In this document: piece by piece, positions 26,680 through 61,442 of the stretch
How positions within the stretch are numbered: the first letter of the stretch is position 1
Layout: every line of letters starts with the position of its first letter
Source: Mangrovicella endophytica
GTDB taxonomy: Bacteria; Pseudomonadota; Alphaproteobacteria; Rhizobiales; Rhizobiaceae
Direction: 5' to 3'
Length of the DNA: 64,000 nt
Assembly: GCF_002893625.1 (NCBI RefSeq)
Contig: NZ_PKMZ01000002.1
Span: forward strand, 558,001-622,000
Program-made: the position numbers and the translations under genes
The notes under the pieces: model-generated
Seen by the model: the letters and a program-made list of their open reading frames with translations, nothing else
Database searches by the model: none
What the model was told of the DNA's origin: nothing

Positions 26680-29600
26680 TCAGGCGTCGAAGCGGCCCGA
26701 CGCATGCGCCAGCATGGTGTAGACCTTGCCGGTATCGGAGGTGAGGTAGGTCCGCGTCAGCGCGTTATCGGGATCCTTGCGGGCGACATCGGATAGCAGC
26801 ATCTCGAAGTCTGAGATGTAGCGGTCCACCGCGCCCCGGAACTCGCCGTCGCGCTGGTACTTGCGGCGGATCTCGTCGAAGGTCTGCTGCCCCTTCATCG
26901 TATAGAGGCGGCGGGTGAAGACGTTGCGCTCGCCACGCCGGTAGCGATCCCAAAGCTCCACCGAGGCATTGTGATCGATCGCCCGGGCGATATCCACCGA
27001 CAATGAGTTCAGCGATTCCACGACGTGGTCCGGCGAGCGATCCGCCGGAGGCTGGGCCGCCGGTGCGGCAGGCGCTGCCGCCTGACGCGGCTGCGGAGCC
27101 GCCGGTGCCGTGCGCTCGGCGGCCTCGGCCTCCTCGCGAGAGGCGCGCCGCAGCAGATCCGACACCCATCCGCCGCCGCGAGCACCGCCGGCATCGCCGG
27201 TGGTGCGGCTCGGCGCCGGAGCGGAAGCCGGAGCGGGCGCCTCGGCCCGCCGCTCGACCGGCGCGGCCGGACGCGGCTGCTGCAAGGCCGTCGGACGCTC
27301 AGGTCCGTAGCTGGAGCGCATGTCGCGGGCAAGATTGCCGTCGGTCATCATCGACCCGGCAATGCGCGCCTGGTCCTCGCTGTCTTCATCCTCGAAGACC
27401 TCCGGGACGCGCGCCTCGCTGCGGAAGGGTTCCTGCCGCTCCGGCCGCTGTGGTGCGAGGCTGCGGGCGGTGTCGGCATAAGACCGCGGCTGTGCGGCCG
27501 TCGCACGAACTTCGGCCCGGGCACGTGGCGCTTCCGACGCCGTACGCCGCTGGCCGATGTCGAAGGCGCGCCCGGACTGGGAAACGACTTCCGACAGGTC
27601 GCGGAGCGCCCGGATCTGGTCGGACACCGCACGACGCATCGCCTCGGCGCTTTCGCGCGTCTCCTCCGGCAGCTCGAAGACGCCACGCTTGATCTCGCCG
27701 CGGGTCTCGTCGAGCTCCTTGCGGATTTCGCCGGCCATGCGGCGCAGCTCGTCCGTCGCGCCTTCGAAGCGGGCGGTCGCATCCTCGACCACGGCCTGGA
27801 TCGCCTCGCGGATCTCGGTGGCGGTGGCGCGCGAGCGCTCCTCCACTTCGTCGAGCTGCTTGCCGGTTTCGCCGAGCGAGGAGCCGATCTCCGTCGACAG
27901 CTGCGAGGACAGAAGACGCGAGCGCTGCTCGGTGCGGTCGAAGAGGCCGGTAATGACCTCCTCGAAGGAGTGCATCAGAGCGCCGATCTCTTCGGAGCGC
28001 TGCACCAGGCCGGTGGAGAGCTCCTCCAGGCTGCCGCGGCGCTCTTCCAGGCTGGTCTGCAGGTTCGACTGTGCCGACTCCAGGAGACCCGCCGCGTCGG
28101 TGAGCGTCGCGCCGTGCTGCTGGAACTTGTCCGCCATGGCCGCGACCTTAGAGAAGGCACTGCTAGCGAGCTGATCCAGCTTGCTGATGTTGCCATCAAG
28201 AAGGCGGGAGGTCAGCGAGATCGAGTTCGATGCCTGCTCCGCGCCCTCGGTGAAGCGTGTGCTGGCATCGCGCAGCGTCGTGTCGATGGCGCCGAGATTG
28301 CCCGCCGCCTCCTCGACAAGGCCGCGAAGCGAACTCGTCGACTGCGATAGGCGGCCGATCAGCGTGTTGACGTTGCGCGACAGCTCGTCACGCATTTCGG
28401 CAACGGCGCCGATGGCGACGGAGGTCTTGTCGTCGAGAGCGGTCAGGATGTCGGCCGAGGACTGGCCGAGCACCTCGACGGTTTCGTTGGCACGGCGGGT
28501 GAGCGCCGACAGGATCGCGGCGTTCTCCGTGCGCAGCCGCTCGGCGACGAGGCGTGAGCTCTCCTCGATGCGCACGACGGCGTCCGCGCCGCTCTGCGCA
28601 AGGCGGTCGACCACCGGCCGAGCCTCCTCGTCCAGAAGGCGGCTGATCTCGGCGCTGCGCCCGGCGAGCATCTCGTTGAGCTCGCGGGTACGGGCATCTA
28701 GATCCTCGGAGAGCGAACGTGTGCTCGCGGCGATCTCGCGCTCCGACTGGGAGACGCGGCCGGCGATCTCGTCACCAAAGGATCCGACGCTCTCCAGAAG
28801 CTGCTCGCGGGCACGGTCAGCCTCGACACGCATCGTGCCCTGGACACGCGCCAGCTGGTCGGCGACCTCGCCGGCCTGCTCGAAGATCGCTTCGCGGGCA
28901 CGGTCGGCCTCGACGCGGATCGTGCCCGGCACGAGCGCCAGCTGGTTGGCGACTTCGCCCGCCTGCTCGATGATCGCTTCACGGGCGCGGTGTGCCTCGG
29001 AGCGGATCGTGTCGGGCACCAGCGCCAGCTGGTTGGCGACCTCGCCGGCCTGCTCGATGATCGCTTCACGGGCGCGGCCGGCCTCGGAGCGGATCGTTTC
29101 AGGCACGAGCGCTAGCTGGTTGGCGACCTCGCCGGCCTGCTCGATGATCGCCTCGCGAGCGCGTTCGACCTCGGAGCGGATGGTGACCGGCACCCGGGCC
29201 AGCTGGTCGGCGACCTCGCCGGTCTGTGCCAGGATCGCATCGCGGGCCCTGTCAGCCTCGACGCGGATGGTGCTCGGCACCCCGGCGAGTTGATTGGCGA
29301 CCTCGCCGGCCTGCTCGATCATCGCTTCGCGCGCGCGCTCGGCGTCGCGCAGCAGAACTTCCGATGCGCCGGAGACATCGCTGCGCAGCCGATCGGCGAC
29401 GCCGACCAGTTCATTGCGCAGCGTATCGGAGGCGCCGGAGACTTCCTGCCGGATTGCCGCGGCAGCCTCTTCCAGGTCGCGCCGGAGCGTCACGGAGGAG
29501 GAGCCGAGCAGATCGGCAAGCTGCGTCGACACGCCGGACAAGCCGTCGGCGAAACGGCTCGCCCGCTCCTCCAGCGTACCGGCGGCACGATCGGCCTCGT

Positions 29601-32600
29601 CGCGCATGCGGAGCGCCGCATCGGAGAGGAGCGCTGCAAAGCCGTCGGTGTTTTCGCCCAGCACCGAACGGACCTCGTCGGTACGGTCGCGCAGCAATGC
29701 TGCGGCGGCCTCCACCTGAGTCGCGATGGCGCCGGCGTCCGCCATGAACTGCTCGCGGGACGTATGACCGGCATTGCGCAGGCGGTCCGCCGCTTCGGCG
29801 AACTGCGCACCGAGCGCCTCCGACTGGCGGGCGAGCTCCTGGCGCGCCTCGTCGGCATCAGCGCGCAGGCGGCCGCCGAATTCGTTGAAGCCGCCGGCAA
29901 AATCCTCGACCAGAGAGCCGAGACGCTCGCGTGCCGCCTCGACCTCACTGCGCATCAGCATCGCCGCGCCGCTGAGACGATCGGCAAAGGCCGCGCCGTC
30001 GCCGGCGAGATCGCCACGCACCTGATCCGCCTCGCGGCGCATCAGACCGGCGACCTCGGCGAGTTCGGTGACGAAGTCGCGGGCGATCGCGGTAAGGCGT
30101 TCGCGCGCCTGATCGGCCTCCGAGCGCAGCGCCAGCGAGGCGCCGCCGATCTGGCTGACGAAGGTGGAGCCTTCGGCAGCGATGCCGCCGCGGGCCTCTT
30201 CGGCTTCCTTGCGCATCTGTGCCGACATGCGGCGGATGCTGTCTGCGAGACCCTCGGCATCGGTGGTGAAGCGCATGTGCGACTGGTCGGCGATGGTGCG
30301 GATGACGTCCGCCGCCTTGCCGATGCTCTCGGCAATGTGCTCGCCCTCTTCGGACAGATCGCCTCGGGCGCGTTCGGCGCGCGCGGTGAGATCGCCGGCG
30401 ATCGCCTGCAGGCGTTCCGACAGGCGCTCGGCCTCCGCGGCGATGCGCGAGCGTGCATCCTCGCCGGCCCGTTCGAACAGCGAGCCGAGACCGGCAACGC
30501 TCGCCGCGATCTTGCGGCTCTCGTTCTCCAGCGCGCGGCGGGCCTCCTCGGCCTCGCCGGCCATGGAAGCAGTGACGGTCGCGATCGTCTGGCGCAGCGT
30601 ATCGGCAATGGCGGCCGTGCGCTTGTTCAGCGTCGTGTCGACATTGCCAAGGCCCCGCTCCAGCGCGACCGAGATTGCGGTGGTGCGCTGATCGAATGCC
30701 TCGGTGAGAGCCGACGTGCCGGTCGACAGCGTCTCGGCCAGTTCGTCGCGGCGCAGCTCCAGCGTGCGGCTGACGCCGCCGACGCTTTGCTCCATTGCCC
30801 GGCGAACGTCGTCGGCGCGGTCCTCAAGCGTCGCGGCAGCCGAGCGAGCGGCTTCGTCGATGATGCCGGCGAGGCTGTCGCGGCGCTCTTCCAGGGCGGC
30901 GGCGAGGCGCAGATCGGCCTCGAACAGCGCATCCGAGATGCCGGCGACGCGCTCGTCCATGACCTCGGCGATCGAGAGGCGGCCGCGCTGCAACTCCTCG
31001 CCGATGCGGGCGGTGCGCTCGTCGAGCCCGTTGAGAAGGCTGTTGTCGGCACCATCCACCACGCCGTGGAGCACCTGCATGCGCTGGTCGAGACCATCGA
31101 GAAGGACGCTGCGCGCTTCCTCGATCATGGCCCGCAGATCCTCCGCGCGCGTCTGGAGACCATCGCCCAGAGCGCCGGTGCGCTCGCCCAGCTCAGTGGC
31201 CAGGCGGTCGATGCGCTCGTCGATGGAGGACAGAAGGCCGGCACGGGTGTCGTCAACCATGGAGCGGATGAGGGTCGCGCGGCGATCCATCTCTTCCGTG
31301 AGATCGGCCGTGCGACGGTCGAGGTCGCCGACGACGAGGTCGCGCGAGCTTTCAACAGCCTCGCGCAGGGTGACGATGCGCGCCGCCAGCTCGTCCGTCA
31401 CGCGGCCGACCGCGTCGTCGAAGCCGCCGGAGATGCCGGCGAACTGATCGGCAAGGCCGCTCGACAGGAGCGCGCCGCGCTCGTCGAGGGCCCGGATCAG
31501 ACCGCCCGTCCGCTCATCGACGTCGTCGACAAGGCGATTGGTGCGTTCATCGAGCCCGCCGAGCAACTGTGCCGAGCGCTGGTCGACCGCATCACCGAGG
31601 ACGCCGGCGCGCTCCGAGAGGAGGCGGCCGATCGCATCAATGCGCCGGTCGATGCCGTTGATGAGGTCGTCACGGCCTTCCTCAACCAGCGCGGCCATCG
31701 CGGCCTTGCGCTCGTCGAGGAGGCTGGCAAGGCTGCCGACGGCCTCGTTCATGCCGACCTGGATCGAGCCTTCGGCGCCGCCGAGCAGCATCTGCAGCCG
31801 CTCGACATTCTCGTCGATGGCGCGCGTGATGGCGTTGCCGCGTTCGTCGAGGCTGCCGAGAAGGTTCTGGTGCGAGAAGGCCAGGGCCGCCTCGATATCG
31901 TCCGAACGGCCGGCCAGCGTTCCATCGAGGCCGGCGAGCTGACCCTCGATCGTGGTGATGAAGCGTTCGGTACCGGCGGCCACGGCTTCCTCGATGCCGC
32001 GCTGACGGGCATCCAGAAGTTCGGTCAGCCGTCCGAGCGTATCGCCCAAACCGGTTTCGAGACGCTCGGCGCGCTCGCTGAGCGCCGTGATGCGGTCGGC
32101 CGTCGCCGCTTCCAGGCTGCCGAGGCGGCCGTCGAGCGTTTCGGTGATGTCGCGGCCGCGCTCATCCATGACGTTTCGGAACAGCGTGATGCGATCGTCC
32201 AAGGCCGAGCGGACGTCGGCGGAACGGGCGTCGAGCATGTCGACGATGTCGCGGCCACGCTCGTCCATGAGGCTGCGGAACAGCGTGATCCGCTCGTCGA
32301 GGGACGCGCGAATATCGGCCGCGCGGCTATCGAGCGTTTCGGTGATGTCACGGCCGCTCTCGTCCATGAGGCCGCGGAACAGCGTGATGCGATCATCGAG
32401 CGTCGCGCGGATATCCGCCGTGCGGGCGTCGAGCGTCGTCGCAGCATTCTGCAGCGCATCGGCTGCCGTCAGAGCAAGATCGGACTGGCCGGTGGCAAAA
32501 GCCTGACCGATCTCGCGGGTGCGGTCCGAGAGGGTGCGGGCGAATTCCAGCGAACGCTGCTGCAGCGCCTCGGTGATGCGGTCGGTGGATCGGTCGATGG

Positions 32601-34521
32601 CCGATGCCCGGCTGTCAATGGCGGAAACGAGGGCGCCGCCGCGCTCCGTCAGCGCCGTTTCCAGCGACTGGAGCTTGCTGTCGAGACCGCCGATCGCGTC
32701 GGAGCCGGTGTCGGACAGGAGGCGCGACACGCGTTCGCCGCGCTCCTCAAGCCCCTCGAGCAAGCGCGAGCCTTCCAGCTCCAGCGTGATCGCGCGGCTA
32801 TCCACTGCCTCCGAAAGGCCGGCCAGGAAGGCGCCATTGCGCGCTTCGAAGGCCTGCAGCCGGTCGTCCAGCGTGCCGCTGAGGCGCTCAAGGAACAGGC
32901 GGCCGTCCTCGTCGAGACTGCGGCTGCGCGTGTCGAGCGCCTCAGTGATGGCGCGGCCCGTGTCGTGCAGGCGTGTTTCGAGCTCGGCGGCGAGCTGCTG
33001 AACGCCATCGGTGGTCAGCTGCAGCCGCTCGGCTGCCGTATCGGCGGATCCGGCGATGCGCGCGATCAGCGCCTCGCTGCTGGCCTGCAGCCGCTCGTCG
33101 GCCTCACGGCTGCGGGCCTCGAACAGAGCGACCAGGCTCTCGCTGCGCTCGCCATAAGAGCGCGCCAACTCATCGCCGCGCTCGGCGAGAAGGGCGTTGA
33201 AGCGGTGGGAAGCATCCTCGATGCGCTGCAGGATCTGCTCGGAGGCCTGGTCGACATCGGCGACCAGGCGCTGATGCGAGCCGACGACCGACGAGCGCAG
33301 GCGCTCGGCATGTGACAGCATCGCCTCGCGCTCGCTGCCGAGATCGCGCACCAGGGCGCGGATCTTCACCTCGTTGTCGGCATAGGCGCGTTCGAGAGCG
33401 GCGACTTCGGAATGAACGATCGACTCCAGCTCGGAGGTGCGGCCGAGCGCACGCTCGACGCCTTCGCCAAGCGCGGCGACCTCGCGGCGGATCGCCTGGC
33501 CGACGCTCATCACGCGCTCGGTTGCGACGGATTCCGGCTCGGCAAGACGCAGCGCCACCTCCGCCATGGAACGGCTCATCAGCCGGAGATCGGCGGAGCG
33601 GCGGATCATCACGGCGAAGGCAAAGATCAGCATCACCGGCACGGCCGCTGTCGCAGCCAGAAGCGCGGCATCGAAGGCCGTGTCGGCATCCGACAGGTTC
33701 TGCGGCAGGTCGATGAGGTCCATGCCCCAGAGGCTGGCAGCAGCCCAACCGACAAGAGCGATCCAGCTGACGGACACGCCGAGCGCAATCCAGATGGGCG
33801 TGCGCGAGGCGCGGCGCGACAAGAGCGCCTGCGCCATCACCGAGGTGCGGCGCTGCTCGTCATTGGCCGCCTGCTGGCGGCGGGCACGCGCATCGGCCTC
33901 CGAGGCGGGGCCGTTCGCGGCTGCGGGCGCCGCCGCCGGCGCGGCAGACGGACCACGGGCATTGGCGGCATTGGCACCAAGGCCGGGCAGGGGCTGGGTG
34001 GTAGCGCGGCCCTCGCCGATGAACGGGTTGGCGGAGGGCGCCGAAGCCGTAGAGGCGGCAGCCTGTGCGGCCGCCGCTGCCGCCGCGACGCCGGTAAAGG
34101 CGCCGCCGGCCGGCGCGAACACCGGGCCGGTCGTGCCGGTGCCGAGCACACGCTCGGGCACGGCCTCGTATTCGGTCTGGGCAACGGCATGTGGAACCGC
34201 GCCGGCGCTGGCCGAGGCGGCGAGCGCCTCGTCCTCCATCAAGGCCGCGGCGATCGCATCGGCTGCCTCATCGCCGGCCATCTCCTCGCGCAGCGTGTCG
34301 GCCGCTTCCTCGACGCGCCGATCGAAGTCCTCGAAGGCGAAGTCGATCTCGATGTCGTCGGGCGTCAGGCTTTCGGTCTCGATGTGCCCCGCCGCGGAAC
34401 CCTCGGCGGTCGCCATCGGCGGCTCGCCGGTTTCTTCGTCCAGAAAGTCGATCTTCAGAGCTTCCTCGAGCTCGCTGACCGCATCGTCGGAGAGAAGATC
34501 GTTTGTCTTGGTCTTCGCCAT
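26680..34521 (-). CDS. gpr: Giant coiled, membrane-anchored protein, GPR/RgsE-like growth-pole ring protein
   Basis: A 2613-residue protein. Order: acidic cytoplasmic N-terminus with Pro/Ala-rich linker (1-235); two membrane segments (about 242-264 WIALGVSVSWIALVGWAAASLW and 281-303); about 2000 residues of apolipoprotein-like amphipathic helix with LDER/RxD phrases; a Pro/Ala/Arg-rich linker; and a conserved compact C-terminus of about 120 residues (VESLNSLSVDIARAIDH, LWDRYRRGERNVFTRRLYT). Three exact-length 33-residue repeats (700-798) and six 29-residue repeats (1729-1902) are embedded. This architecture matches the GROWTH POLE RING protein of Agrobacterium and RgsE of Sinorhizobium, which organise unipolar growth. 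Identification is by architecture, not alignment. It is monocistronic, with a good terminator. Confidence 0.8.
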   Translation of the reverse strand: MAKTKTNDLLSDDAVSELEEALKIDFLDEETGEPPMATAEGSAAGHIETESLTPDDIEIDFAFEDFDRRVEEAADTLREEMAGDEAADAIAAALMEDEALAASASAGAVPHAVAQTEYEAVPERVLGTGTTGPVFAPAGGAFTGVAAAAAAAQAAASTASAPSANPFIGEGRATTQPLPGLGANAANARGPSAAPAAAPAAANGPASEADARARRQQAANDEQRRTSVMAQALLSRRASRTPIWIALGVSVSWIALVGWAAASLWGMDLIDLPQNLSDADTAFDAALLAATAAVPVMLIFAFAVMIRRSADLRLMSRSMAEVALRLAEPESVATERVMSVGQAIRREVAALGEGVERALGRTSELESIVHSEVAALERAYADNEVKIRALVRDLGSEREAMLSHAERLRSSVVGSHQRLVADVDQASEQILQRIEDASHRFNALLAERGDELARSYGERSESLVALFEARSREADERLQASSEALIARIAGSADTAAERLQLTTDGVQQLAAELETRLHDTGRAITEALDTRSRSLDEDGRLFLERLSGTLDDRLQAFEARNGAFLAGLSEAVDSRAITLELEGSRLLEGLEERGERVSRLLSDTGSDAIGGLDSKLQSLETALTERGGALVSAIDSRASAIDRSTDRITEALQQRSLEFARTLSDRTREIGQAFATGQSDLALTAADALQNAATTLDARTADIRATLDDRITLFRGLMDESGRDITETLDSRAADIRASLDERITLFRSLMDERGRDIVDMLDARSADVRSALDDRITLFRNVMDERGRDITETLDGRLGSLEAATADRITALSERAERLETGLGDTLGRLTELLDARQRGIEEAVAAGTERFITTIEGQLAGLDGTLAGRSDDIEAALAFSHQNLLGSLDERGNAITRAIDENVERLQMLLGGAEGSIQVGMNEAVGSLASLLDERKAAMAALVEEGRDDLINGIDRRIDAIGRLLSERAGVLGDAVDQRSAQLLGGLDERTNRLVDDVDERTGGLIRALDERGALLSSGLADQFAGISGGFDDAVGRVTDELAARIVTLREAVESSRDLVVGDLDRRTADLTEEMDRRATLIRSMVDDTRAGLLSSIDERIDRLATELGERTGALGDGLQTRAEDLRAMIEEARSVLLDGLDQRMQVLHGVVDGADNSLLNGLDERTARIGEELQRGRLSIAEVMDERVAGISDALFEADLRLAAALEERRDSLAGIIDEAARSAAATLEDRADDVRRAMEQSVGGVSRTLELRRDELAETLSTGTSALTEAFDQRTTAISVALERGLGNVDTTLNKRTAAIADTLRQTIATVTASMAGEAEEARRALENESRKIAASVAGLGSLFERAGEDARSRIAAEAERLSERLQAIAGDLTARAERARGDLSEEGEHIAESIGKAADVIRTIADQSHMRFTTDAEGLADSIRRMSAQMRKEAEEARGGIAAEGSTFVSQIGGASLALRSEADQARERLTAIARDFVTELAEVAGLMRREADQVRGDLAGDGAAFADRLSGAAMLMRSEVEAARERLGSLVEDFAGGFNEFGGRLRADADEARQELARQSEALGAQFAEAADRLRNAGHTSREQFMADAGAIATQVEAAAALLRDRTDEVRSVLGENTDGFAALLSDAALRMRDEADRAAGTLEERASRFADGLSGVSTQLADLLGSSSVTLRRDLEEAAAAIRQEVSGASDTLRNELVGVADRLRSDVSGASEVLLRDAERAREAMIEQAGEVANQLAGVPSTIRVEADRARDAILAQTGEVADQLARVPVTIRSEVERAREAIIEQAGEVANQLALVPETIRSEAGRAREAIIEQAGEVANQLALVPDTIRSEAHRAREAIIEQAGEVANQLALVPGTIRVEADRAREAIFEQAGEVADQLARVQGTMRVEADRAREQLLESVGSFGDEIAGRVSQSEREIAASTRSLSEDLDARTRELNEMLAGRSAEISRLLDEEARPVVDRLAQSGADAVVRIEESSRLVAERLRTENAAILSALTRRANETVEVLGQSSADILTALDDKTSVAIGAVAEMRDELSRNVNTLIGRLSQSTSSLRGLVEEAAGNLGAIDTTLRDASTRFTEGAEQASNSISLTSRLLDGNISKLDQLASSAFSKVAAMADKFQQHGATLTDAAGLLESAQSNLQTSLEERRGSLEELSTGLVQRSEEIGALMHSFEEVITGLFDRTEQRSRLLSSQLSTEIGSSLGETGKQLDEVEERSRATATEIREAIQAVVEDATARFEGATDELRRMAGEIRKELDETRGEIKRGVFELPEETRESAEAMRRAVSDQIRALRDLSEVVSQSGRAFDIGQRRTASEAPRARAEVRATAAQPRSYADTARSLAPQRPERQEPFRSEARVPEVFEDEDSEDQARIAGSMMTDGNLARDMRSSYGPERPTALQQPRPAAPVERRAEAPAPASAPAPSRTTGDAGGARGGGWVSDLLRRASREEAEAAERTAPAAPQPRQAAAPAAPAAQPPADRSPDHVVESLNSLSVDIARAIDHNASVELWDRYRRGERNVFTRRLYTMKGQQTFDEIRRKYQRDGEFRGAVDRYISDFEMLLSDVARKDPDNALTRTYLTSDTGKVYTMLAHASGRFDA
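28816..29337 (-). repeat. Six tandem 87-bp repeats inside the giant gene
   Basis: Encodes six consecutive 29-residue units beginning RAREAIIEQAGEVANQLA; units 3, 4 and 5 are nearly identical and a seventh begins and diverges. The exact 87-base period keeps the frame, so units could be gained or lost by recombination without disrupting the protein. Confidence 0.9.
32128..32424 (-). repeat. Three tandem 99-bp repeats inside the giant gene
   Basis: Encodes three 33-residue units of the form R(T/A/S)AD(I/V)R.(T/S/A)LD(D/E)RITLFR, then (G/S/N)(L/V)MDE(S/R)GRDI. Spacing is exactly 99 bases. These are distinct from the 29-residue array and show a second independent duplication within the helical region. 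Confidence 0.85.
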
Positions 34522-56583: not shown

Positions 56584-57354
56584 ATGAGACATCTGCATGC
56601 ACTGCTTTTGAATTTGGCAGGGAGAGGTCGTCGTTTACAGCAAAGGAGGTTGAGCCGAGCCGAAGCCGAGACGCTGTCCCCGGGCGCTGACCACTATGCA
56701 GCCTATGTCGGGCCGCCGACGGAGTGGGACCTCATGGGTGCCACGCAATTCCGGCTGTTGTGCGCGCTGGGCCTGCGCGATCATCACAAGGTGCTGGACG
56801 TGGGATGCGGGTCATTGCGGGGCGGGCGGTTTCTGCTGCTCTACCTCGATAGAGGCAACTACTACGGCATTGAGCCGAACCGCTGGCTGATCGACGACGT
56901 CGTCGCGCGTGAATTGGGCGAGGAGCTCATTCGGCTGCGGGCACCCCGCTTTTCCAGCCGGAACGATTTTGATCCTTCCGAATTCGGCACTGCATTCGAC
57001 TTCGTCATCGCGCAGTCGATCTTCTCGCATGCGGGCCCGGACATCATCCTGCCTGCGCTGCGGAACCTGGGACGCTTCCTGCGACCTGGCGGGCTGATCC
57101 TCGCCACTTTCATCCACCGCGAGACTAATCGCGAGATGCCCGAAGAAGCGCCGGGCTGGACCTATCCCGGCTGCACGACCTACTCGGCGCCTCGGATCCT
57201 GGAGCTTCTAGGGCAGGCCGGGATGATCGGACGGATGCTGCCCTGGTATCATCCGCGCCAGAGTTGGTACGCGATCGCCTCACGTCACGAGGACATTCCT
57301 CCGGAAGAATTCGACGTGCACCTTTCGGGTCAGGTCCGGAGTGGCTTTGAGTAG
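56584..57354 (+). CDS. Class I SAM-dependent methyltransferase
   Basis: A 256-residue Rossmann-fold methyltransferase. Motif I is VLDVGCGSLRGGRFLLLYLD, the acidic loop NYYGIEPNRWLIDD follows, then DFVIAQSIFSHAG and LRPGGLILATF. A helical N-terminus (RGRRLQQRRLSRAEAETLSPGADHYAAYVGPPTEWDLMG) is probably substrate-facing. The substrate is unknown; similar proteins occur near sulfotransferase and glycan genes, and here it heads an accessory region with a glycosyltransferase-sulfotransferase fusion. The ribosome site is weak (AAGG). Confidence 0.85.
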   Translation: MRHLHALLLNLAGRGRRLQQRRLSRAEAETLSPGADHYAAYVGPPTEWDLMGATQFRLLCALGLRDHHKVLDVGCGSLRGGRFLLLYLDRGNYYGIEPNRWLIDDVVARELGEELIRLRAPRFSSRNDFDPSEFGTAFDFVIAQSIFSHAGPDIILPALRNLGRFLRPGGLILATFIHRETNREMPEEAPGWTYPGCTTYSAPRILELLGQAGMIGRMLPWYHPRQSWYAIASRHEDIPPEEFDVHLSGQVRSGFE

Positions 57355-57442: not shown

Positions 57443-58414
57443 TCAGCGCTGCGCGACCGGGGTCGGGGCGACGCCGTCAGACGTATTGGCGTTCACCTGG
57501 TTGGTGCCGTAGGAGTAGATGGTGCCTCCCGAAGCCGTCTGCAGGCCGGTGCCGTTGTTGGTAACCGACGAACGTCCGATCAGGATCGCGGAGTTTGCGC
57601 CGACGGAGCGGACGCCTTCACCGGCATTGTTGGCAACGAGCACCCCATCCAGCATCATCCTGACGACGCCAGTTCCGGCGATTGCCGTAAAGCCATGGAA
57701 TGGCGCATCGCTCGTCGAACTGTTCCGGATGCTGACGTCGACGTCACCGGTTGTTCCCGACGAGTCGGCCCGGACCCCGACGACGTTGTTCGAGAAGACC
57801 GTGTTGGCGACGGTCACCTGCGCGGCCGCACTTCCCGTAGGCGCGATCTGAAGCCCCGCCCCGTTCGTCGAGCTGCCATTGTTCGTGATCGTGCTGTTGG
57901 CCAGCGTCAGCCTGGCCGTCCCCGTGGAGTTGTTGACGAAAACGCCGAAGCCGTTAGGCGCGTCACCTTTGAAGCCGTTGATCGTCACTCTGTCGACGAG
58001 AACGGAGTTTGCCTGGAGATAGCGGATGCCGTTCAGGCCAGGGGCTGTTACCGGGGCGCCGTTGATGGAAATGCCACGCAGCACGACGTTGATGTCAGCG
58101 CCATTGACGATGATGCCATTGGTGGCTGAGGAGAGTGCTGACCCGAAGGTGCCACTGCAGTCGATCGTGATCGACTTGGTGATGGTGACGGTGCCGTAGC
58201 CGGCGGGATCGAGGCAGTTGATCTCGCCGCTTGCAGCCGTCTTGGAGATGGCGCCGGCAAAGGTCTTGCAGGGCGCGGTGCGGCTGCAAGGATTGACGTC
58301 ATCACCGACGCCGGACACCCAGGTACGGGTGGCCTGCGCGGAGGCCTGGCCCACGAAGGCGCCGACCAACAGCGGCGCAGCCAGGAGAGCCGCGACCAAG
58401 TTGAGCTTTTTCAT
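57443..58414 (-). CDS. Secreted right-handed beta-helix protein
   Basis: A 323-residue exported protein with signal peptide (KLNLVAALLAAPLLVGAFVGQASA). The mature part starts TWVSGVGDDVNPCSRTAPCKTFAGAI, has a cysteine-bracketed ITIDCSGTFG segment, and continues as short repeated strands rich in Asn, Val, Ser and Gly (NGFGVFVNNS, LANSTITNNGSS, NTVFSNNVVGVR), the pattern of a parallel beta-helix. Related proteins are common in Rhizobiales and Bradyrhizobium without known activity; no lyase active site is recognisable. A surface-adhesion or polysaccharide-binding role is a guess. Confidence 0.82.
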   Translation of the reverse strand: MKKLNLVAALLAAPLLVGAFVGQASAQATRTWVSGVGDDVNPCSRTAPCKTFAGAISKTAASGEINCLDPAGYGTVTITKSITIDCSGTFGSALSSATNGIIVNGADINVVLRGISINGAPVTAPGLNGIRYLQANSVLVDRVTINGFKGDAPNGFGVFVNNSTGTARLTLANSTITNNGSSTNGAGLQIAPTGSAAAQVTVANTVFSNNVVGVRADSSGTTGDVDVSIRNSSTSDAPFHGFTAIAGTGVVRMMLDGVLVANNAGEGVRSVGANSAILIGRSSVTNNGTGLQTASGGTIYSYGTNQVNANTSDGVAPTPVAQR

Positions 58415-58848: not shown

Positions 58849-60600
58849 ATGTCTGACCTCGTCATACGGTTTTCTTGCGTTGTCGACGAGGATCCAATCT
58901 TCACGACCCAGGCATTTCGCTGGGTCCGTAGCCTCATCGAACTGGGTCGTGTTTCTCCTCAGGACATTGCGGTTCATTATGTATTGGGCACTGATCGTGT
59001 TCGTCTGGCGGAAGTCTTCGAGCCTCTGTGCGTTTCTCTGTTCCCCGTGAGTCGGATGTCATGGCGGTTGCCTCACTTGAACAAGCTCGCTCAGTTGCAG
59101 TCCCTCTTCCTGCGGGATGCGGACCTCGCAGTCCTGTGTGACTGCGACACGTTCTTCCTATCCGATCCTCGTCCGTACCTTGTGAAAGATCAGCTGGCGG
59201 CGGCCGTGGTCGATCTGTCGAACCCGCCTCTTGTCATCTGGGACGAATTGCTCCGGCGGGCCGGCCTGACCAAGGGGCGGCCGGACGTCAGGACCGGCTC
59301 TTCGGATGCTCCGACGATCTTCGAGAATAGGAATGGCGGGATTTACGTCTTCCCCGGAAAGCGGTTGGGAGAGATCGACGAGGCTTGGCGCAAGTGGGTC
59401 GCATGGCTCGACGGCCAGGGCGACATTCTCGGGCATTTCACGTTTCACACCGACCAGATCGCGTTCGCGCTTGCCTGTCTCGACAACGACTTGCAGCCCC
59501 GTATCCTGCCGAAAAGCTTGAACTTTCCGACACATCTGCCGCCGGAACATGTCGGCGACGGAGCGCCGATCGTGCTGCATTATCATCGTCATGTCGACAA
59601 GCGGGGCGCTCTCCGGCCGCTCGGGCAGCCAACGGTGGATCGGGCGATTGCATTTGCCAATTCAGTCCTCGCCAAACCGGCGTTGATCCAGCGCAAGCAG
59701 CGCCTGGTCCTCCATGTCGGCCTCCCCAAAACTGGAACGAGCGCGTTGCAGCGCTGGTGCGGGGACAACGCCACAGAGCTTCTTGCACATGGGATCAGGT
59801 ATCCTGAACCCAGCAGCTTGACAGCGATGCCCAAGCACCAGTTCCTGGTGGACGATCTGAAGTCAGGGCGTTTCGATCGGACGGCGAAGGCCATTGCCGA
59901 GAGCCGCGCGGGCAACGGCTCGGATTGCGTCATCCTGAGCACCGAGGGCCTGACCAATCACCTCTACGACTTCCGTCCGGCGGCCTTGAAGACTCTGCGC
60001 GAACTGCTGGAGCCCTTCGAGACAACGATATTCCTGGTCCATCGAGACCTCGAGGACTGGCTGCGGTCGTACCACAAGCAATGCGAGATCAATCCGCGCA
60101 TTCCGATCTACAGCTACGGTCTCGGCCTCGATCTGCGGGAGTTCCGGGAACTTCCACGCGTCAAGAAATTGATGAACATCCAGAACCTTGTCGCGGACTG
60201 TGCGGCCGCTTATGGCTCGGCCAAGGTCGTTGCCGCCGAATTCGACACTGACTGGACCGGGCAGTTCTTCTCCTTGTGCGGGTATAGTCCGGTGGGAGGC
60301 AGCGAATTGCCGCGCGCCAATGAAAGCGTACCGGACTGGGTTTTTCAGGCCGTGCTGCGTCTCAACCGGCTCGGCCTGTCCGACGAGGCGCGGAGCGCCT
60401 GGATGGGCACTCTGCAGCGTTTTGCCCGGTCTCGGCATTCCGGATTGATGGCCTTCGAAGCGAAGTCGAGCGCCGAAAGGCTGTGGCGTCAGCTAGACCC
60501 TGCACTCATCGGCGTAGTCTCAGCGCCCGACGAGCGCTGGACAGGCTATGGTGACATGGTGCTGCGGCTGCTTCAAGAGGTTTCCGAGAAGAGCGTTTGA
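58849..60600 (+). CDS. Glycosyltransferase-sulfotransferase fusion protein
   Basis: A 583-residue two-domain protein. Residues about 1-275 look like a GT-A glycosyltransferase: DxD in AVLCDCDTFFLSDPRPYL, NGGIYVFPG, a donor-site FHTDQIAFALACLD and a late VLHYHRHVDKRG. Residues about 285-583 are a P-loop sulfotransferase-like domain with the PAPS-binding loop LHVGLPKTGTSALQRW and a 3'-phosphate-binding FLVHRDLEDWLRSYHKQ. It could add a sugar to a surface glycan and sulfate it. The exact acceptor is unknown. The ribosome site is poor, and the codon use is less GC-biased than in neighbours. Confidence 0.82.
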   Translation: MSDLVIRFSCVVDEDPIFTTQAFRWVRSLIELGRVSPQDIAVHYVLGTDRVRLAEVFEPLCVSLFPVSRMSWRLPHLNKLAQLQSLFLRDADLAVLCDCDTFFLSDPRPYLVKDQLAAAVVDLSNPPLVIWDELLRRAGLTKGRPDVRTGSSDAPTIFENRNGGIYVFPGKRLGEIDEAWRKWVAWLDGQGDILGHFTFHTDQIAFALACLDNDLQPRILPKSLNFPTHLPPEHVGDGAPIVLHYHRHVDKRGALRPLGQPTVDRAIAFANSVLAKPALIQRKQRLVLHVGLPKTGTSALQRWCGDNATELLAHGIRYPEPSSLTAMPKHQFLVDDLKSGRFDRTAKAIAESRAGNGSDCVILSTEGLTNHLYDFRPAALKTLRELLEPFETTIFLVHRDLEDWLRSYHKQCEINPRIPIYSYGLGLDLREFRELPRVKKLMNIQNLVADCAAAYGSAKVVAAEFDTDWTGQFFSLCGYSPVGGSELPRANESVPDWVFQAVLRLNRLGLSDEARSAWMGTLQRFARSRHSGLMAFEAKSSAERLWRQLDPALIGVVSAPDERWTGYGDMVLRLLQEVSEKSV

Positions 60601-60646: not shown

Positions 60647-61249
60647 TTATGGACGGGGCGGGTAAATGCCCTCGAGAGCAATACACCACGTCATCGCGAG
60701 GTAGGGACCGCGATGCTGGACGGGCTGGCTGCCGCCTGTCTGAGCGATCATGTCAGCCGCCATGGTGCGATTGGCTGGCCCATTGTGATAGACGTCGTCG
60801 TCGCCCACACCGCCACCGAGATAGCGGCCCTGCGGCCCGCCCTGATCCGCGGTTGCGTTAGTCGCGTTCACCACATGCGAGTGCGAAGGCATCTGCGCCG
60901 TAGTGAGGGTGAAGCTTTCCTGGCCCCCAATTTGGCCCAAGGCGTAAGTCGAAAGACCAGGACCTGTACCAGCGAAGATCGGCGCGCGGCCGCGCAGATC
61001 AGGAAGGGCGAAGGTCGACGTTCCGTTGCCGCCGTAGGTCGTTCCCAAAAGCGAGAACAACGCCGTATTGGATGCTATCGAGAGAATCGAGCCATCGGCG
61101 TTGGCCCAGCCCCTCGGACAGAAATTGCCGCCGAAGAGCATAGCCTGCCCGACAAAGGGCTCGGCCTGTGCCGAAGCGGTCGAGGTGCCGGCAATCGTTG
61201 CGAGAAGAGTGCATGAGAGAGCGAGCGAGTTCTTCGTGAGCCTGCGCAC
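60647..61249 (-). CDS. Exported phage tail-collar-domain protein
   Basis: A 200-residue protein with a signal peptide (LTKNSLALSCTLLATIAGTSTASA) and a phage Tail Collar domain: EPFVGQAMLFGGNFCPRGWANADGSILSIASNTALFSLLGTTYGGNGTSTFALPDLRGR, then GQIGGQESFTLTTAQMPSHSHVV, GRY and LAMTWCIALEGIYP. Such proteins (MdpB-like) have been found outside phages as secreted proteins. The start is taken at GTG 61249 because GGAGG lies 6 bases upstream; a TTG at 61276 is poorer. No other phage gene is present. Confidence 0.85.
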   Translation of the reverse strand: MRRLTKNSLALSCTLLATIAGTSTASAQAEPFVGQAMLFGGNFCPRGWANADGSILSIASNTALFSLLGTTYGGNGTSTFALPDLRGRAPIFAGTGPGLSTYALGQIGGQESFTLTTAQMPSHSHVVNATNATADQGGPQGRYLGGGVGDDDVYHNGPANRTMAADMIAQTGGSQPVQHRGPYLAMTWCIALEGIYPPRP

Positions 61250-61442
61250 CTTTGTCCTCCGTAAGGTGTGTCCCAACTGACAGCACCCTCACCGTAGAGA
61301 ACCGCTCAAGGTTGTAAATAGACACCCGTTCTTATCAGCTGCCTGTCTCCGCTTCCATGCGACAGTTGGCGGAGAGATGCTTCAATTCATGGGCTGGATA
61401 TGGCACGGAGCGCGCTGAACATCCCTCTAAAGGCATGAAGAG

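Follow-up and report, generated by a model that had tools for sequence, protein, structure and literature searches.

The window, i.e., the whole stretch of 64,000 nucleotides of Mangrovicella endophytica DNA that was analyzed, carries genes in the order alaS (named by eye), icd, a methyltransferase, a 323-aa protein, the fusion considered here, a tail-collar protein, trmJ and murI. The fusion sits among housekeeping genes, outside any glycan cluster. Its reading frame (58849-60600, plus strand) has no internal stops, and its highest 19-residue Kyte-Doolittle mean was 1.13, i.e., a transmembrane segment is absent. The linker between its two domains appears to be short, at roughly ten residues as judged from the alignment. 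Other frames overlapping 58849-60600 were taken as shadow frames, judged by overlap. Scans returned two promoter-like sites (0.7 expected) and no terminator (2.3 expected). The features referred to below are as follows.

58849..60600, plus strand: fusion coding sequence, 583 aa, an open reading frame whose ATG start lines up across the four full-length relatives
58849..59682, plus strand: putative N-terminal GT-A-like (perhaps GT8-like) glycosyltransferase domain (N-domain), residues 1-278
59080..59085, plus strand: Asn78-Lys79, invariant in all five N-domains of a five-sequence alignment
59137..59151, plus strand: CDCDT, residues 97-101, with the DxD formed by Asp98 and Asp100
59326..59340, plus strand: NRNGG, residues 160-164, collinear with the NAG of a GT8 protein
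59452..59457, plus strand: Asp202-Gln203, collinear with the DQ of a GT8 protein
59578..59586, plus strand: His244-Tyr-His246 (HYH), possible third metal ligand
59698..60597, plus strand: C-terminal PAPS-sulfotransferase-like domain (C-domain), residues 284-583
59725..59757, plus strand: PKTGTSALQRW, residues 293-303, putative 5'-phosphosulfate loop with Lys294
59836..59838, plus strand: His330 (KHQF), candidate catalytic base, invariant in seven of seven sulfotransferase domains
59944..59946, plus strand: Glu366 (TEGL), candidate catalytic base, invariant in seven of seven sulfotransferase domains
60043..60069, plus strand: Arg399 to Ser407, putative 3'-phosphate site R-x7-S
60647..61276, minus strand: tail-collar-domain protein (PF07484), apparently secreted, convergent neighbor of the fusion

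Elsewhere in the window, a 2613-aa frame on the minus strand (26680-34521) matched apolipoprotein-type profiles and is possibly a long helical or coiled-coil protein.

The initial annotation had placed a DxD in the N-terminal half and PKTGTSALQRW in the C-terminal half of one chain, and both lie at those positions. A search for the same fusion elsewhere recovered full-length relatives in two genomes of one genus of the same family (G031 and G129, 61% identity each) and in Aquisalinus flavus (52% identity; NZ_CP042288.1, a 3.1-Mb chromosome record). Because the frame is full length and open in four genomes, the fusion is neither a chance frame nor an assembly error. Separate genes for each half do exist elsewhere, as would suit a sequencing error that merged two genes, but with four open fusions, one of them in the Aquisalinus chromosome record, and with both halves under purifying selection, we regard the chance of such an artefact, or of a chance frame, as practically negligible; alignment of the four open full-length fusions led us to discard it.

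The fusion is rare. Full-length copies were found in at least 3 of 199 family genomes, at least 1 of 385 class genomes and at least 1 of 398 phylum genomes, the single class and phylum copies being that of M. endophytica itself; these counts are lower bounds, few candidates having been scored per genome. A further genome collection returned two loci, one of which was the full-length relative in Aquisalinus flavus. Searches with the N-domain matched 7 of 394 family genomes (the three with fusions, G027, G1172, G1218 and a weak match in G1128), 2 of 240 genomes of the class (M. endophytica and a weak match in G384) and, in the family of a further genome, G729, 2 of 198 (G729 and G994). The G027 copy, represented by two fragments that each lie near a contig start and continue into unrelated sequence, with a trmJ-like gene downstream of one of them, looks broken, although assembly breaks may explain it instead. 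No relative was found among the viral contigs and phages searched. The plasmids searched held no fusion, and 16 plasmid records matched the sulfotransferase half only.

Both halves are under purifying selection. By the Nei-Gojobori method, dN was 0.14-0.49, dS 0.54-1.88 and dN/dS 0.19-0.31 over six pairs and two halves. For G031 versus G129, dN and dS were 0.142 and 0.75 in the N half and 0.146 and 0.54 in the C half; in the remaining five pairs dN was 0.33-0.49 and dS 1.17-1.88, which is near saturation. The identities of the N and C halves differed by no more than 3 points in five of the six pairs; in the other, the window versus Aquisalinus flavus, they were 48% and 58%, respectively. The DxD, Lys294, Glu366, Arg399 and Ser407 were invariant in all four full-length fusions, as were the DxD and PKTGTSALQRW motifs taken together.

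The loop in the C-domain is presumably not a canonical Walker A. Judged on sequence alone, Lys294 and Arg399 were present in seven of seven sulfotransferase domains and Ser407 in six of seven, with Ala in G729. In the available parts of PMC11625862, a 5'-phosphosulfate loop with a conserved Lys (or Arg) and a 3'-phosphate consensus RXXXDXXXS are described for sulfotransferases, and the Lys294 loop and R-x7-S site agree with that description. The best Pfam match of the C half was to Sulfotransfer_4 (E 0.042, 14.1 bits against a cut-off of 22.8), and no Pfam or NCBIfam sulfotransferase family scored above cut-off; because of this, we claim for the C-domain only that it would work like a sulfotransferase, outside any Pfam sulfotransferase family. 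The same paper, in those parts, describes Pfam profiles as biased against detecting bacterial polysaccharide sulfotransferases. When compared using hhalign, the C half scored 99.5% against four stand-alone relatives in M. endophytica (three of which were scanned against Pfam, with no match), 47.8% against a set of Pfam-recognized sulfotransferases, confined to 44 columns around the P-loop, and 0.3% against APS kinase. The C-domain profile failed to find the sulfotransferase parts of either the G631 protein or the 1745-aa chain described below. The group to which the C-domain belongs also includes single-domain genes in Paracoccus, G612, G816 and G729. Its assignment as a predicted sulfotransferase is fairly firm.

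The assignment of the N-domain draws on signals that are concordant but weak. The DxD was present in all ten aligned N-domains, and Asn162, Gly164, Asp202 and Gln203 were invariant across the five-sequence alignment. HYH, whose role as a metal ligand we have carried over by assumption from GT8 enzymes, occurred in seven of the ten, being missing from the split-pair genes (see below) and G1128. Against six GT8 proteins (6 of 20 loci; of the eight chosen, L098 and L101 had no usable frame, and L104 was trimmed to 167 aa), hhalign gave 39.3% (E 3.1e-4) with seven N-domains and 43.3% (E 2.4e-4) with ten, with DxD, NxG, DQ and Leu...Asn collinear between the two profiles. The Glyco_tranf_2_4 (GT2-type) set climbed from 11.5% with seven N-domains to 50.0% with ten, and because it then scored above GT8, membership of GT8 in particular is not settled. 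A GT2 set scored 0.7% and 2.3%, and sets that are not glycosyltransferases (methyltransferase, sulfotransferases, APS kinase, RecA, Icd, TrmJ and MurI) scored 0.6% or less in both runs. There was no Pfam or NCBIfam match over cut-off, and none to any Pfam glycosyltransferase family; Pfam Glyco_transf_8 in particular gave no match above cut-off, and for this reason we call the domain GT8-like rather than a GT8 member. In the M. endophytica genome as a whole, PF01501 gave one weak, below-cut-off site, on contig C12.

The single protein and four profiles, each searched against PDB sequences, gave nothing below E 0.1. AlphaFold models, built from two sequences (the window and Aquisalinus flavus), were of low confidence, with pLDDT values of 41.5 for the full length and 48.9 for the N half. 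With the full-length model, the first 30 Foldseek rows consisted entirely of glycogenin or LgtC entries (E 5.5e-3 to 2.5e-2), many for one and the same protein; the N-half model gave a mixed list led by GMPPA/GMPPB, O-mannose GlcNAc-transferase and glycogenin. No match to either of these poor models reached E 0.001, and in VIA-align a universal stress protein (Z 8.4) and a galactosyltransferase (8.3) ranked equally. Because both models are poor, the glycosyltransferase call rests on the motifs and the weak matches. They suggest that the N-domain is a glycosyltransferase, GT-A-like and perhaps GT8-like. The two-domain chain claimed in the initial annotation stands as far as its signature residues, the purifying selection and the split pair are concerned, but the low-confidence models do not confirm two complete domains, and no Pfam glycosyltransferase family matched.

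In G1172 and G1218, two genomes of one genus of the same family, the halves are adjacent same-strand genes that keep the order of the fusion. In G1172 (L128, minus strand) an N-domain gene of 313 aa (6375-5434) is followed after 13 bases by a sulfotransferase gene of 297 aa (5420-4527); behind these lie a gene matching Sulfotransfer_3 weakly (E 0.012) and then a GT2 gene. By BLASTP, its N gene was 26% identical to the window N half over 242 columns (E 6e-24), and its C gene 41% identical to the window C half over 274 (E 4e-61). The same pair, also 13 bases apart, occurs in G1218 (L129), with 93% identity to G1172 in the N gene (310 aa) and 92% in the first 275 aa of the C gene. The last 24 residues of the G1218 sulfotransferase match in another frame (L129:4840-4911), which may reflect a frameshift close to the end of the gene. 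Because the halves adjoin as separate genes in these related bacteria, the sugar and sulfate steps may be performed together. In a midpoint-rooted sulfotransferase tree of 17 rows, the four fusions formed one clade (98/96), with a stand-alone Paracoccus gene next (89/80; a long branch whose place is unsure) and the split pair and G729 within the enclosing starred set (98/97). With such rooting, the tree suggests, without proving, that unfused genes came first. A tree of N-domains did not settle the order of fused and unfused forms.

The N-domain appears to take different modifying partners. In G729 (L063:8618-10177) it is fused to a methyltransferase domain (Methyltransf_23, 1e-10), and that contig also carries, at another position, a relative of the C half. 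In G631 (L067) an N-domain relative is fused to a different Pfam sulfotransferase (Sulfotransfer_3, 3e-17), surrounded by GT1-, GT2- and Wzt-type ABC genes. In G994 (L083:2594-3466) it is a separate gene between two GT2-type (Glyco_tranf_2_4) genes, one of which has a weak methyltransferase match. When compared with the N-domains of the fusions and G729 using hhalign, the G994 and G631 domains scored 97.6% (E 4.5e-12, 232 columns). Two other candidates were set aside. A 327-aa neighbor at L130 was sulfotransferase-like by eye and was matched by neither Pfam nor the sulfotransferase profile. On L002, a metagenome contig labeled Bordetella parapertussis, a sulfotransferase-like part (E 1e-16) is followed by a DxD-like stretch that matched neither Pfam nor the N-domain profile, and the reading of this as a fusion was dropped.

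The genes around the fusions were compared using lists of open reading frames (length limits of 150 or 180 aa) and were, in the relatives, mostly named by eye. In G031 and G129 the fusion lies between an alaS-like and a collar-type gene, and neither a methyltransferase nor icd intervenes; in Aquisalinus flavus a dnaX-like gene precedes the fusion, which is followed by ybaB- and recR-like genes. The nearby methyltransferase (56584-57354), which had been suggested to act on the same glycan, does not adjoin the fusion in the three other fusion loci, so that the proposed link found no support. Compared with the methyltransferase domain fused to the N-domain in G729, it showed 30% identity over a short stretch of 57 aa, a weak match (E 0.011). 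Between it and the fusion lies an apparently secreted 323-aa protein (57443-58414, minus strand) with no Pfam match, and none was found beside the fusion among the frames listed for G031 and G129. A similar collar-type gene, recognized by eye, is convergent with the fusion in both G031 and G129, and on the basis of this gene order it is the collar-type gene, not the methyltransferase, that is the conserved neighbor within the family. The tail-collar protein is a possible partner of the fusion.

Elsewhere in the M. endophytica genome, on contig C33 (L078:2488-12494), genes resembling cysD, cysNC and cysQ precede one for a 1745-aa chain. The N-terminus of this chain is Sulfotransfer_3-like (25.8 bits against a cut-off of 27), and the chain also has WbsX, GT1 and GT2 domains; after it come an epimerase and, at a greater distance, a stand-alone sulfotransferase relative. 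This is likely to be a sulfated-glycan locus. The cys-like genes are of the PAPS-making kind, so that the cell would have a supply of PAPS. Five sulfotransferase relatives besides the fusion were listed in this genome. One lies just past the end of the window, after an rpsD-like gene (L093:3586-4818, equivalent to 64585-65817 in window numbering). APS kinase was above cut-off in all six genomes searched, which is weak support because it was also common in control genomes (11 of 14).

We consider it fairly probable that the fusion is a soluble, cytosolic, bifunctional glycosyltransferase-sulfotransferase carrying out both steps on one glycan. We infer that both halves are catalytic and act on the same glycan. 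The N-domain would transfer a sugar from a nucleotide-sugar donor to a glycan intermediate with the help of a metal bound at the DxD, and the C-domain would next transfer sulfate from PAPS to that sugar or to an adjacent one, with Lys294 steadying the leaving phosphate and Arg399 and Ser407 holding the 3'-phosphate. With the domains linked, a given residue would be both added and sulfated by a single unit. The probable acceptor is a surface-polysaccharide intermediate linked to lipid, or a glycolipid intermediate.

Other readings of the chain differ in what they ask of the N-domain and of the acceptor. The weakness of the glycosyltransferase assignment, and the lack of HYH in the split-pair N-domains and in G1128, would both fit a chain in which only the sulfotransferase is catalytic, the N-domain being a degenerate GT-A-like module that binds and presents a glycan or nucleotide-sugar acceptor. 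We think this unlikely, because the DxD is found in ten of ten N-domains, the Asn-Lys, Asn-x-Gly and Asp-Gln pairs are invariant in the five aligned, the two halves are about equally well conserved in five of six pairs, and in G994 the N-domain stands as a separate gene between glycosyltransferase genes. Alternatively, both domains might be active on different acceptors, with the fusion tying their expression together, e.g., for one multiply decorated glycan. The variety of N-domain partners (the methyltransferase of G729 and the different sulfotransferase of G631) speaks for this, but the short linker and the same gene order in the split pair suggest close physical work, without proving a shared acceptor, and separate acceptors seem to us quite unlikely.

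That the acceptor is instead a protein, which would receive its sugar and sulfate ahead of export, we consider very improbable; the convergent tail-collar protein might be such an acceptor. A collar-type gene does adjoin the fusion in all three family genomes found with it, and in G1172 an apparently secreted protein of 370 aa is encoded next to the N gene. However, Aquisalinus flavus has no collar gene beside its fusion, the collar and fusion genes are convergent and do not form one operon, and the 370-aa protein has no Pfam match. In our judgment, the chain is a real, rare and conserved fusion, and most likely a coupled sugar-and-sulfate transferase.

A coupled transferase of this kind might also serve to cap glycans, an idea that we hold only tentatively: it would add a specific sugar and sulfate it at once, so marking or ending a surface glycan, and would have arisen by fusion of adjacent genes and then spread to housekeeping loci as a cassette of one gene, i.e., beside alaS in one family and between dnaX- and ybaB-like genes in Aquisalinus. 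If so, a bacterium could gain a sulfated cell-surface cap with one gene. A chain with its own sugar transferase would indicate which residue is likely to be sulfated, and donor, acceptor and position would be testable with one recombinant protein, which might in addition find use in the preparation of sulfated glycans.

The initial annotation, which ranked this fusion as the most promising undescribed enzyme of the window, overstated its uniqueness. Other glycosyltransferase-sulfotransferase chains occur in G099, in G631 and on a plasmid of Leisingera, and M. endophytica itself has one whose sulfotransferase match is below cut-off. The frame in G099, a genome of the same family, has capsule-synthesis, GT2 and sulfotransferase parts (916 aa within the stretch examined), and in Gemmobacter fulvus a GT2 gene and a sulfotransferase-like gene overlap by 4 bases. 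No bacterial glycosyltransferase-sulfotransferase chain was described among the open-access PMC matches listed, subscription papers and preprints being outside that scope, nor was one found in the accessible portions of PMC4483657, PMC4558948, PMC11766843, PMC11641403, PMC10117803, PMC13390465 and PMC11625862. The capsule papers on Cobetia and Vibrio (PMC11766843, PMC11641403), in those portions, describe clusters in which sulfotransferase, glycosyltransferase and PAPS genes occur together, and the second states that little is known of bacterial sulfotransferases acting on polysaccharide sugars. The kinds of domain are known or nearly so; for their combination with this N-domain, the open-access literature searched gave no description.

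A known chain close to it in plan is WP_259973151.1 (782 aa) of the Leisingera caerulea plasmid NZ_CP081076.1, annotated as glycosyltransferase family 2 and carrying a sulfotransferase domain; four further Leisingera plasmid rows share this annotation, one record having been examined. Like the fusion, it has a glycosyltransferase followed by a relative of the same sulfotransferase (whole-protein E 2e-24, residues 378-657), but it has a GT2 domain in place of the N-domain, and its gene lies beside other glycan genes. The N-domain shares with the retaining GT8 glycosyltransferases (glycogenin, LgtC; PF01501) the order of DxD, NxG, DQ and Leu...Asn, and differs from them in having no Pfam GT8 match. 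The C-domain shares the loop lysine, R-x7-S and, as candidate catalytic residues, the conserved Glu and His with PAPS-dependent polysaccharide sulfotransferases (Sulfotransfer_1/3/4), and differs in falling below every Pfam cut-off. In NDST (N-deacetylase/N-sulfotransferase), as described in the accessible text of PMC10864358, the partner is a deacetylase rather than a putative glycosyltransferase, and the likeness drawn is one of concept: there too, a single chain carries out both the sulfation of a glycan and a second change to that glycan.
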